Part shown: positions 8,911-12,299 of the stretch, piece by piece | Layout of the letters: each line of letters opens with the position of its first letter | How positions within the stretch are numbered: the first letter of the stretch is position 1 | Assembly (NCBI RefSeq): GCF_001904745.1 | Contig: NZ_MRCD01000013.1 | Coordinates: forward strand, 37,039 to 101,038 | Reading direction: 5' to 3' | Length of the DNA: 64,000 nt | From: Calothrix sp. HK-06 | GTDB lineage: Bacteria > Cyanobacteriota > Cyanobacteriia > Cyanobacteriales > Nostocaceae | Program-made: the position numbers and the translations under genes | Notes under the pieces: model-generated | The model's database searches: none | Told to the model about the DNA's origin: nothing | Seen by the model: only the letters and a program-made list of their open reading frames with translations

Positions 8911-8949
8911 AATTAAAAAACCCCTCCGAGGTCGGCGCCTGGAGGGGTT
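8911..8949 (-). terminator. thrS attenuator B, proximal intrinsic terminator
   Basis: Read on the minus strand, AACCCCTCC (8949-8941) pairs with GGAGGGGTT (8927-8919) and a run of six T follows. It stands between leader peptide B and the thrS ribosome-binding site. Its 5' arm with the following AGG (8949-8938) is also complementary, apart from one bulged base, to CCTGGAGGGTT at the end of leader peptide B (8987-8977), giving an antiterminator alternative. Confidence 0.85.
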
Positions 8950-8972
8950 TGTTTTGAACGCATTCAACAACG

Positions 8973-9041
8973 TCACAACCCTCCAGGTGCGATAGTGGTG
9001 GTAGTGGTAGTAGTTGTTGTAATGGCTTTGAAATTATTCAT
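8973..9041 (-). CDS. thrS leader peptide B with nine consecutive Thr codons
   Basis: A 22-codon frame (ATG 9041-9039, TGA 8975-8973) reads MNNFKAI, then nine threonines in a row, then IAPGGL. The final codons CCT GGA GGG TT overlap the sequence that can pair with the 5' arm of terminator B. A ribosome stalled for lack of charged tRNA-Thr would leave that arm free, prevent the terminator and allow thrS transcription. A ribosome finishing the peptide would cover it. This is the classical arrangement of amino-acid biosynthetic attenuators, here in front of a synthetase gene. Confidence 0.85.
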   Translation of the reverse strand: MNNFKAITTTTTTTTTIAPGGL

Positions 9042-9071
9042 ATTGAGAATGACAATAGGAAATGATGGTAC

Positions 9072-9103
9072 TAAAAAACCCTCCGACGTTGCGCCTGGAG
9101 GGT
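9072..9103 (-). terminator. thrS attenuator A, distal intrinsic terminator
   Basis: On the minus strand ACCCTCC (9103-9097) pairs with GGAGGGT (9084-9078) and a T tract follows. It lies between leader peptide A and leader peptide B. The AGGAGGGTTGTG segment directly after leader A (9150-9139) can pair with CACACCCTCC at its 5' arm, the competing antiterminator. Confidence 0.8.
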
Positions 9104-9149
9104 GTGAGTCATCGCTTATAAACGTGCGCGTAACGTTTCACAACCCTCC

Positions 9150-9200
9150 TTAGCTGGTAGTTCGAGTAGTTATGCTGGTTGTGATTAAGCTAATAATCAT
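9150..9200 (-). CDS. thrS leader peptide A, Thr-rich
   Basis: A 16-codon frame (ATG 9200-9198, TAA 9152-9150) reads MIISLITTSITTRTTS: six of 16 residues are Thr, with three Ile. The stop codon is followed at once by GGAGGGTTGTGA, the same string that ends leader B, and then by terminator A. The two leader-terminator units share this core and look like a duplicated module. Expression is inferred from composition and placement. Confidence 0.75.
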   Translation of the reverse strand: MIISLITTSITTRTTS

Positions 9201-9237
9201 GAGTATTAAGTTGAGTAATTATTTAAGCCTGTAATTC

Positions 9238-9266
9238 TATTTAAACAAATTTTACTCGATTGTCAA
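9238..9266 (-). promoter_or_regulatory. Candidate sigma-70-type promoter for the thrS leader
   Basis: On the minus strand TTGACA (9266-9261), a 17-base spacer and TAAATA (9243-9238) form a near-consensus promoter about 30 bases before leader peptide A. A start near 9231 would give a leader RNA of about 350 bases containing both attenuators. Confidence 0.6.
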
Positions 9267-9770: not shown

Positions 9771-12299
9771 ATGTTGTTTCAAAGCCTTTTTTCTTTAGAA
9801 GCATTTATTCCCCATGGCCATTGCTACCTTTGGAAGCCGAGGTTGCTGGGACTGCACCTGACATCTGATTTGCTCATCGCTATTGCTTATTATTCAATTC
9901 CAATCTTGCTGATAAATTTTGTTTCCCAACGGCAGGACTTTCCCTACAAGTCAATACTTGTGTTATTTAGTGCTTTTATTGTTGCTTGTGGCACAACTCA
10001 CGTATTAGACATTTGGACACTTTGGCATCCTACCTACTGGCTATCAGGTCTAGTAAAAGCAATTACAGCGTTAGTGTCAATTAGTACTGTACTAACACTA
10101 ATACCAATGATTCCGAAATTGCTTGCTCTGCGAAGTCCACATCAATTAGAAAAGGCAAACATCGATTTACAACACCAAATTACTGAGCGAAAGCTGTTAG
10201 AGTCGGCACTTCGGCAAAGTGAACTACGCTATCGTGCGATTCTTGAAGATCAAACAGAATTGATTGCTCGCTATCAACAGGATGGTACGGTAACTTTTGT
10301 CAATGAAGCTTACTGTCAGTATTTTGGACAAGCACGCTCAGAATTAGTCGGACACCGTTATGAGCCAGTAGTTTTTGAGGCTGACCGAGCGCGAGTTGCA
10401 CAACTGATAAACTCAATCGACTTATCCAACCCAGTGGTTATTGGTGAAAACCGTGTAGTGGTAAATGGCAAAGTTCGCTGGACACAGTGGGTAAATCGAG
10501 GTTTGTTCAATGAGCAGGGAGACTTGGTTGAGTTGCAAGCAGTGGGGCGTGATATTCATCATCTCAAGCAGATGGAAGAAGCGCTTTTTGAAGAGAAAGA
10601 AATAGCTCAGGTGACACTACACTCAATTGGGGATGCGGTAATTACTACTGATGGAACTGGCAATGTTGTCTATTTAAATCCAGTAGCAGAGAACTTGACG
10701 GGTTGGAAACAACAAGATGCATACGGATTGTCGGTAACACAAGTATTTAAAATTATTAATGCTCAAACTGGTCAGTTTTTAGAAAATCCGGTTAATCAAG
10801 CCCTACAGCAAGGTCAGATTATAAAGCTAGCAAACGATGCACTTTTAATTGATCGCAATGGAGGTGAAATAGCTATTGACAACTCAGCAGCCCCTATTTG
10901 CAATCGTGAGGGTAAGATTATCGGTGCAGTTATGGTGTTTCGCGACATGACCGAAAATCGCCTTTTGTCGGAGCAACTTGCTTGGCAAGCTAGCCATGAT
11001 ACTCTGACTGGATTGTTTAATCGACGAGAGTTCGAGCAAAGATTAGAAGTAGCTTTTTTTGAAGCTAAAAACCAAAATGGCAAACATATTCTGTGTTACC
11101 TGGATTTGGATCGTTTTAAGATTGTCAACGATACCTGCGGTCATATGGCAGGAGATGAAGTGCTACAGCAAGTTACAAAATTGTTGCAGAAAGGTCTTCG
11201 CAAAATTGATGTCTTGGCACGGTTGGGAGGCGACGAATTTGGACTATTGCTGCATCAATGTTCTTTAGAAACCGCCGTGCAAATTGTTAATGATATTCGA
11301 GAACAACTTCATGAGTTTCAATTTACGTTTCAAGGTAAGACGTTTTTTATTGGGGTCAGTATTGGACTAGTGGAAGTTAATGCCCAAAGTGAGAGTACTG
11401 TCAGTGTTTTAAGCTCTGCAGATGCAGCTTGTTATGCCGCTAAAAAGAAAGGGCGCAATCGCATACATATATTTCAATCAGACGATGAAGAATTATTGCT
11501 TTCTTGCAGCGAAGTGCAATGGGTGGCACGTTTGACGCAAGCCTTATGGAATGATTCTTCGGCGAAGCGACTTCATGAGCGCTTGTGCTTGTATTACCAA
11601 CCAATTGCAGCTATTACTCCAACAGGGTTGGAAATTGATCATTACGAAGTGCTGTTACGTCTATTGAATGAACATGACAACGTAATTCCAGCGACTGCAT
11701 TTATTTCATCTGCGGAACGCTATGATCTGATGCGTTTAATAGATCGCTGGGTGATTCGCACTTTTTTTCGTGAGTGGTCACTCATGATAAACATTAACCA
11801 ACTTTACAAGCATAGGACTCAAAAAATTTTTACACTCAATCTTTCTGGTGACAGCATTAATGATAACGAGTTCATTACGTTTTTGTATGAGCAGTTTGAA
11901 GAGCATAATGTATTGCCGGAGTCGATTTGTTTTGAGATTACAGAGACAGTGGCAATTACCAATTTAACTAAAGCTAATCAGTTAATCCAAGAGCTACAGC
12001 AAATAGGCTGCAGCTTTGCTTTGGATGATTTTGGTAGTGGTATGTGTTCTTTTAACTATTTGAGGAATTTGTCAGTAGATTATTTAAAGATTAACGGTGA
12101 GTTGGTCAAAAATATTGCAGATAATCCAGTAGATGCAGCTATAGTAAAAGCAATTACGCAGATTGGTCATGTGATGGGAGTAAAAATTATTGCAGAATCT
12201 GTGGAAAATAACAAAATCTTAGAGCGTATTCAGACGCTTAAGATCGATTATGCTCAAGGCTATTTGATTGGTACACCGTCCTTGTGTGTCCAAACATAA
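9771..12299 (+). CDS. Ethylene-receptor-like membrane sensor with PAS, GGDEF and EAL domains
   Basis: The 842-residue protein combines a plant-ETR1-like ethylene-binding domain with cyclic-di-GMP enzymes. Three membrane helices fill residues about 28-130. D33, Y40, I43, P44, C73 and H77 occupy the positions of ETR1 D25, Y32, I35, P36, C65 and H69, the last two being copper ligands there. Two PAS domains follow (about 150-270 and 280-395), then a GGDEF domain with an intact LGGDEF (about 485-490) and an EAL domain (about 590-835) with EVL instead of EAL, an intact DDFGSG and FEITET. It is probably a bifunctional c-di-GMP synthase and phosphodiesterase controlled by a small hydrophobic ligand. 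It appears monocistronic. Confidence 0.9.
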   Translation: MLFQSLFSLEAFIPHGHCYLWKPRLLGLHLTSDLLIAIAYYSIPILLINFVSQRQDFPYKSILVLFSAFIVACGTTHVLDIWTLWHPTYWLSGLVKAITALVSISTVLTLIPMIPKLLALRSPHQLEKANIDLQHQITERKLLESALRQSELRYRAILEDQTELIARYQQDGTVTFVNEAYCQYFGQARSELVGHRYEPVVFEADRARVAQLINSIDLSNPVVIGENRVVVNGKVRWTQWVNRGLFNEQGDLVELQAVGRDIHHLKQMEEALFEEKEIAQVTLHSIGDAVITTDGTGNVVYLNPVAENLTGWKQQDAYGLSVTQVFKIINAQTGQFLENPVNQALQQGQIIKLANDALLIDRNGGEIAIDNSAAPICNREGKIIGAVMVFRDMTENRLLSEQLAWQASHDTLTGLFNRREFEQRLEVAFFEAKNQNGKHILCYLDLDRFKIVNDTCGHMAGDEVLQQVTKLLQKGLRKIDVLARLGGDEFGLLLHQCSLETAVQIVNDIREQLHEFQFTFQGKTFFIGVSIGLVEVNAQSESTVSVLSSADAACYAAKKKGRNRIHIFQSDDEELLLSCSEVQWVARLTQALWNDSSAKRLHERLCLYYQPIAAITPTGLEIDHYEVLLRLLNEHDNVIPATAFISSAERYDLMRLIDRWVIRTFFREWSLMININQLYKHRTQKIFTLNLSGDSINDNEFITFLYEQFEEHNVLPESICFEITETVAITNLTKANQLIQELQQIGCSFALDDFGSGMCSFNYLRNLSVDYLKINGELVKNIADNPVDAAIVKAITQIGHVMGVKIIAESVENNKILERIQTLKIDYAQGYLIGTPSLCVQT

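Follow-up and report, generated by a model that had tools for sequence, protein, structure and literature searches.

Known leaders and serial attenuators

The enteric thr, his, trp and leu leaders (RF00506, Thr_leader) each combine a short ORF rich in cognate codons with an intrinsic terminator and a competing antiterminator, and the leader described here is alike in all three respects. The enteric leaders control biosynthetic operons, whereas ours lies ahead of a spare threonyl-tRNA synthetase (ThrRS) gene and has two like gates in series; it also differs in that the antiterminator strand (GGAGGG) sits at the leader stop and that no 1:2 protector was seen. Vecchione and Sello reportedly described, in 2010, an auxiliary antibiotic-resistant TrpRS controlled by ribosome-mediated attenuation. 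That gene, said to come from Streptomyces and to have a single attenuator, resembles ours as an auxiliary synthetase gene under leader translation but differs in its amino acid (Trp), its host (an actinobacterium) and its lone attenuator.

Serial elements are also found in bacilli ahead of thrZ, presumably a second ThrRS gene that senses the charging of tRNA-Thr. According to PMC2494555, thrZ has 2 or 3 adjacent T-boxes that act by serial antitermination, and trpE of bacilli also has 2 or 3 of them. Sensing by thrZ is direct, through the tRNA, whereas our leader would act through leader translation, and the likeness between the two serial arrangements appears to be one of convergence. The Salmonella mgtCBR leader likewise holds two leader ORFs and two attenuators; PMC3641672 calls this tandem attenuation a singular example and has its attenuators answer two signals, ATP and Pro-tRNA. 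Tandem attenuators were thus already known with two different signals, whereas here both would be alike and would read Thr.

For cyanobacteria, we found no description of leader-peptide attenuation among titles and abstracts of the open-licence literature, a search that could miss subscription papers. PMC4833913 states that there are no reliable data on this mechanism in cyanobacteria, and the string 'cyanobacteri' does not occur in the main text of PMC2965389. A preliminary description of this locus was aware of no described case for a cyanobacterial synthetase gene, nor of a serial pair; for serial attenuators, mgtCBR and thrZ are partial precedents.

Two leader units ahead of a short thrS gene

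The window, that is, the whole 64-kb stretch of DNA that was analysed, carries a short extra thrS gene behind a leader of 350 nt that contains two units, A and B (Table 1). Direct reading of the sequence found the Thr-rich leader ORFs of both units, both terminators and the repeated GGAGGG at the sites given in the preliminary description, and the near-consensus promoter that it placed upstream is likewise present as sequence. In unit B the GGAGGG (8984-8979) falls within the last codons of the leader ORF. No evident Shine-Dalgarno sequence could be read before either of the window's leader ORFs; AGGAG precedes the leader ORFs of some relatives, for example that of unit B at locus L091.

Table 1. 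Features of the thrS locus in the 64-kb window
Feature	Position	Strand	Basis
Candidate promoter, TTGACA-17-TAAATA	9238..9266	minus	sequence
Leader ORF A, MIISLITTSITTRTTS-stop, 16 codons, 6 Thr	9150..9200	minus	sequence
Putative antiterminator 5' strand A (segment 2), GGAGGG, just past the unit A stop	9144..9149	minus	predicted pairing
Intrinsic terminator A, ACCCTCC...GGAGGGTTTTTT, CCCTCC..GGAGGG, T6	9073..9103	minus	-15.7 kcal/mol
Leader ORF B, MNNFKAITTTTTTTTTIAPGGL-stop, 22 codons, 9 consecutive Thr	8973..9041	minus	sequence
Putative antiterminator 5' strand B (segment 2), GCACCTGGAGGG	8979..8990	minus	predicted duplex
Intrinsic terminator B, AAACCCCTCC...GGAGGGGTTTTTT (AAACCCCTCC..GGAGGGGTT, T6)	8915..8950	minus	-20.6 kcal/mol
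Short extra thrS, 395 aa	7693..8880	minus	TIGR00418, Pfam

When both strands of the 64 kb were scanned for ATG ORFs of 10-45 codons in which some stretch of 12 codons holds 6 or more Thr, exactly two were returned, leader ORFs A and B; 30 dinucleotide-preserving shuffles of the same 64 kb gave a mean of 0.07 and a maximum of 1. Under a weaker limit of 5 Thr in 12 codons the window had 5 such ORFs, against a shuffled mean of 1.6 and maximum of 7. A generic scanner flagged part of terminator B, missed terminator A and called a promoter pair elsewhere (9245-9218); because its counts did not exceed those of its own shuffles, we took it as support neither for nor against these features. In 30 of the 35 loci examined for it, exact TTGACA occurs no more than 130 nt ahead of the start of unit A, and by a rule of our own it is paired with a -10-like hexamer in 22 of the 35.

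Adjoining the leader and divergent from it, an ORF on the plus strand (9771-12299) encodes a protein of 842 aa whose N-terminal domain is ethylene-receptor-like (PF25487) and which also has PAS domains, GGDEF and EAL; it is possibly an ethylene-binding cyclic-di-GMP enzyme.

Conservation of the units and of their Thr codons

The main evidence for the tandem arrangement, beyond the window shuffles, is its conservation in relatives. The Thr codons and hairpins of the leader recur across seven family groups, with both units at 33 of 35 intact short thrS genes, always in the order A then B, and unit A alone at the other two (L084 and L164). The 35 intact genes are L081, L084-L095, L113-L124, L157, L159-L165, L297 and L298; L166 was counted as broken because of an in-frame stop, L158 and L123 are one and the same gene, and L116 runs into a contig end, with both its units found on a second contig of that genome (L186) and joined to it for this count only. 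Since the genes are related, our counts of loci, units and codons are not independent.

A counterpart of leader ORF A, with 4-9 Thr, was present at all 41 loci whose leader was read, and one of leader ORF B, with 4-11 Thr, at 39 of them. The unit A peptide ends in GGL or GGS in 33 of the 41; the unit B peptide ends in PGGT in 24 of the 39, and among the other 15 a GGL or GGS end is found only in that of the window. From this difference in peptide ends, A and B appear to have been distinct elements for a long time. L084, which is closely related to the window gene, keeps unit A and has unit B replaced by unrelated sequence, which makes it a natural single gate. At L094 an insertion of ∼170 nt between the leader ORF B stop and terminator B parts GGAGGG from its partner, a natural test of spacing; this unit was omitted from folding and from one further analysis.

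Of 189 codons compared in 27 unit B leaders, namely the seven ahead of the PG(G) end in each, 174 are Thr codons. Pairwise differences at codon positions 1, 2 and 3 numbered 198, 273 and 1348, respectively, over 2457 codon pairs. Because the differences concentrate at position 3, Thr has evidently been kept while the third base drifted, and on this comparison the unit B leader ORFs are under coding selection. Both the sequence and its synonymous variation agree with the short ORF rich in cognate codons that is characteristic of ribosome-mediated attenuators. No comparable leader precedes the 16 full-length thrS loci, where the upstream sequence (700 nt in 15, 644 nt in one) never had more than 4 Thr in 12 codons.

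The same comparison bears on the proposal that the terminators are governed by uncharged tRNA, as in a T-box, or by the synthetase binding its leader, rather than by a translating ribosome. In bacilli thrZ uses T-boxes (PMC2494555), and autoregulation of E. coli thrS is known (PMC2965389). A ligand of either kind, tRNA or protein, would, however, have no need for Thr to be kept while the third base varies. PMC2494555, moreover, lists 0 T-boxes in 13 cyanobacterial genomes, and in the 6 kb around our gene a search with matches reported up to E 5 gave no T-box. We regard this explanation as very improbable. A T-box or other catalogued RNA was ruled out by searches of eight sources, the window and 7 relatives, with no T-box covariance-model match and no Rfam family at its gathering threshold; RF00506 (Thr_leader) itself scored 26.8 bits against the window (gathering 55, E 0.074), which leaves our leader outside that family.

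Six broken genes (L096, L143, L144, L145, L166 and L167) keep both units. In G127, a genome of the same genus, unit A is kept on the minus strand (L185) and no short thrS match was found in the genome; in G008, fragments of leader and gene remain. The broken genes and the unit A of G127 are what might be expected if the leader were a product of chance or a functionless relic, but the window shuffles, the mostly synonymous variation and the presence of both units at 33 of 35 intact genes leave that reading close to negligible.

Leader and gene together look like a stand-alone conserved module. Among up to 7 ORFs on each side at 17 loci, no family was common to more than 2 loci, and the Pfam matches of the nearest neighbours were mutually unrelated except for a GidA-type gene that adjoins in two loci (L196 and L202); the scan omitted one 1893-aa nearest neighbour at L204 because of its size, and a few others matched nothing in Pfam. 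A conserved operon or biosynthetic-cluster context for these 17 loci was ruled out by their unshared and unrelated neighbours.

Terminators and alternative pairing

A hairpin core followed by a T-rich tail, as in an intrinsic terminator, was found in each of 55 units, the core being complete in 46; the unit A terminators of L095, L123 and L124 were missed by the shuffle analysis and were read from the sequence. That the GGAGGG at or after the leader stop can pair with the 5' arm of the following terminator, as had been claimed for the window, proved true there and in 55 of 55 units. All six core bases pair in 48 units and five in 7, which provides each with an alternative antiterminator; resemblance to GGAGGG served to choose the leader-end hexamers, and the 5' arm was identified as the partner of the 3' arm. 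In window unit A, GGAGGG pairs at six of six positions with the CCCTCC of terminator A, in a duplex of -16.0 kcal/mol that 2 of 200 shuffles equalled; the unit B duplex with the terminator 5' arm, at -23.7 kcal/mol, was equalled by 0 of 200. Terminators were correctly assigned in 52 units; in 50 of these no more than 10 of 200 shuffled leader ends paired as strongly, and the worst case was 22 of 200.

Terminator alignment A1 had 19 cells changed on both sides compared to 6.6 in shuffles, and 86.7% paired cells compared to 82.4%. Two of the five terminator covariation measures, pairs with double changes (5 vs 3.2) and further pair types (13 vs 11.5), were unremarkable, 36 and 92 of 500 shuffles being as high. 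Little change is expected in the terminator core because one arm serves two partners.

Folding was compatible with a switch within the constraints that we imposed. Without the 3' arm the antiterminator formed in 54 of 54 units, and with GGAGGG masked, as by a ribosome at the stop, the terminator formed in 54 of 54, each outcome being favoured by its constraint. At equilibrium the complete stalled RNA favoured the terminator in 31 of 54 units and the antiterminator in 23, so that release would have to depend on kinetics. A protector hairpin (segment 1:2) could not be made out in the leaders.

Threonine codons of leader and enzyme

The Thr runs of the leaders use ACC or ACT for 357 of 429 Thr codons (83%; 69 units, with the last codon left out). 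In the short thrS genes these two codons account for 38 of 201, counted over 36 reading frames taken to the first stop, three of which are broken (L096, L166 and L167). The pyrimidine-ending share is 0.52-0.58 in the seven other four-fold families of the short genes and 0.59 for Thr in 16 full-length thrS genes. At 17 loci, ACC/ACT made up 9 of 100 Thr codons in short thrS versus 2489 of 4428 in neighbouring ORFs; the window thrS has 4 Thr codons, none of them ACC or ACT. Gene by gene, the ACC/ACT share was below the gene's own other-family average in 32 of 34 genes and was zero in 17, a set that, like our tree, takes in L166 with its in-frame stop. One clade shows no or hardly any avoidance, L085 and L116 being above their own averages and L086 just below.

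The short enzymes are also poor in threonine, holding 3-10 residues or 1.47% (33 genes), versus 3.97% in the same region of 16 full-length cyanobacterial ThrRS. At nine alignment columns Thr is the residue in half or more of 13 full-length enzymes; one of these is Thr in all 25 short enzymes and one in 16 of them, and the remaining columns are mostly Ser, Val, Leu or Arg. The 16 full-length genes (L082 and L098-L112) are the best-scoring full-length loci, most of them from genomes without an intact short thrS. We limited the comparison to these because the 'other bacteria' group (77) holds wrong-strand ORFs, among them rows with low Thr (L004, L010, L034, L059 and L080); in the per-residue table, which includes the wrong rows, the ratio was 0.39 for Thr and 1.69 for Ser.

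ACC and ACT are the codons read by the GGU tRNA, and the genome has tRNA-Thr genes with anticodons GGU, UGU and CGU. Under the selective charging theory, as set out in PMC1183508, leader codons favour the isoacceptor that loses its charge first while others stay charged; the source cites experimental support for the Thr family, and the ACC-rich run of the E. coli thr leader, with its eight ACC codons, is like those of the window leaders. As far as codon usage can tell, the pattern here fits the theory on both sides, sensor and enzyme, and the short thrS looks as if built for translation when tRNA-Thr(GGU) is uncharged.

Distribution of the module

A protein search of 217 family genomes gave 21 matches at E<=1e-112, comprising 18 intact short genes, 2 broken ones (G060 and G022) and one full-length ThrRS (G089), and a sample of the order (291 genomes) added seven further intact short genes. 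A phylum sample of 292 genomes yielded no new short gene by protein search, all 18 further matches being full-length ThrRS; an RNA search of a class sample later found short genes in genomes other than those of the phylum sample. Short thrS genes span seven family groups (f1, f15, f18, f20, f25, f34 and f42).

The RNA model was built from 30 units and then searched alone. In the window's own genome only the two units scored well (E 3e-17 and 3e-10; next 0.04). In the multi-genome searches each genome gave from several hundred to about 1,700 candidates, of which the best 19 or 10 were scored. Among the best 19 candidates in each of the 217 family genomes there were 46 matches at E<=1e-5 in 24 genomes, all at short thrS genes or their remnants, many of these loci having also trained the model; among the best 10 in each of 388 class genomes, ten genomes outside training had matches at E<=1.3e-5, again all at short thrS, two of the genes being broken (L166 and L167). 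Weak matches (E 1e-4 to 1e-3) away from short thrS numbered six in the family and eight in the class among the candidates scored. Two that were examined, in G142 and G033, were ordinary terminators, and at weak-match loci L168-L175, checked for that gene only, there was no short thrS. A wider Thr regulon was not found with this model, which stays close to thrS leaders.

A plasmid search returned two named copies, one on each of pREC1 and pREC2 (predicted conjugative), plasmids of Acaryochloris marina MBIC10699; both copies keep units A and B. This single strain therefore holds two copies of the module (L298 on pREC1 and L297 on pREC2). Scans of general genome contigs retained only relatives at 47-55% identity, and those of viral contigs gave 58 relatives at 41-55% identity.

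The short ThrRS and its possible triggers

The short ThrRS consists of the class II core and the anticodon-binding domain only, PF00587 and PF03129 being its sole Pfam matches. The window protein scores 454.9 bits against TIGR00418 (cut-off 383.65) and so belongs to that family; its match begins at profile position 172, and the TGS and editing domains are absent. A full-length ThrRS is encoded elsewhere in the window's own genome, as it is in 13 of 13 genomes carrying an intact short gene in one genome set. In our tree the short enzymes, with 34 rows, formed one clade against five outgroup rows (support 100/100).

It is quite possible, though short of probable, that the same double attenuator usually responds to a natural ThrRS inhibitor of the obafluorin or borrelidin type, the spare enzyme then taking over; this would refine the attenuator explanation without contradicting it. 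The spare antibiotic-resistant TrpRS said to be under ribosome-mediated attenuation would be an analogue. Thirteen of 34 short ThrRS, spread over three separate clades, have Ser at residue 463 (E. coli numbering), versus Gly in 12 of 12 and Ser in 0 of 12 full-length enzymes, and the position of Asn333 is Ser in all 34 short ones. ObaO, an extra ThrRS that we take to be full-length, shares Ser463 with these 13 relatives, whereas the window member has Gly463. PMC11252418 reports that G463S in E. coli ThrRS gives obafluorin resistance and makes borrelidin more than 20-fold weaker, and that ObaO, which belongs to an obafluorin producer, naturally has Ser at 463. Against an inhibitor as trigger, Gly463 is kept by the window enzyme, by 20 others of the 34 and by both plasmid copies; inhibitor resistance is therefore not claimable for the window enzyme, which has neither the Ser nor the Ala of the ObaO type. 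Nor does the tree force more than one origin of Ser463 for the three clades, a single origin being not strictly excluded. Ser is generally enriched in the short enzymes (7.5% vs 4.4%, in a comparison that includes some wrong rows), and the nearest neighbours do not resemble a biosynthetic cluster.

The residues Cys334, His385 and His511, which we take to be the zinc ligands of ThrRS, are intact in 25 of 25 short enzymes. The short ThrRS should therefore need zinc too, which argues against the idea that it mainly replaces a zinc-starved main ThrRS while the attenuator senses the lowered charging. By analogy, Anabaena thrS2 under Zur would be a precedent (PMC4787780). On pREC2, a Fur-family regulator, a GTP-binding protein and dnaG are encoded about 10 kb or less from the short gene, and the pREC1 copy adjoins cysS; among the nearest neighbours scanned at 17 other loci, however, there was no zinc-uptake or Fur-family match. 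We consider zinc limitation unlikely, and a weaker lead than inhibitor resistance.

Proposed mechanism and significance

Very probably, the leader consists of two serial ribosome-mediated transcription attenuators, both reading Thr codons, before an inducible spare ThrRS. This tandem reading, put forward in the preliminary description, gains support from the anatomy, the conservation, the coding selection, the alternative pairing and the divided codon use, all seen at the level of sequence; leader translation, stalling, read-through at both gates and the physiological trigger are what we infer. With ample Thr-tRNA, a ribosome would cross the Thr run, reach the leader stop and cover GGAGGG; the 5' arm CCCTCC would then pair with the second GGAGGG, the terminator would form and transcription would end. 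When tRNA-Thr is uncharged, mainly the GGU isoacceptor for ACC/ACT, the ribosome would stall upstream within the Thr run, and the free GGAGGG could capture CCCTCC and let RNA polymerase pass. With two gates to pass, thrS would be on only if both leader ribosomes stalled, which should therefore give lower leak and a steeper response. The product would be an emergency ThrRS for a shortage of threonine-loaded tRNA. With few Thr codons, and few of those sensed by the leader, thrS should thus be translatable in the very state that induces it.

We also entertain, tentatively and with more doubt than confidence in the whole, a broader account. The module would be a transferable, self-contained emergency cassette and the first ribosome-mediated amino acid attenuator of cyanobacteria, double-gated; its ThrRS would have been stripped of Thr and of the sensor's codons, sensor and enzyme splitting the tRNA-Thr isoacceptors; and in several lineages the enzyme would be resistant to natural ThrRS inhibitors, which would be the trigger.

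If the leader works as proposed, leader-peptide attenuation would extend to cyanobacteria and would imply close transcription-translation coupling there. Placing two like gates in series would be a simple design, found in nature, for a switch that is steep and leaks little. The way in which sensor and enzyme divide the Thr codons would offer a natural test of the selective charging theory (PMC1183508), and the Thr-poor ThrRS would be a clear case of an enzyme able to be made during the shortage that it relieves.
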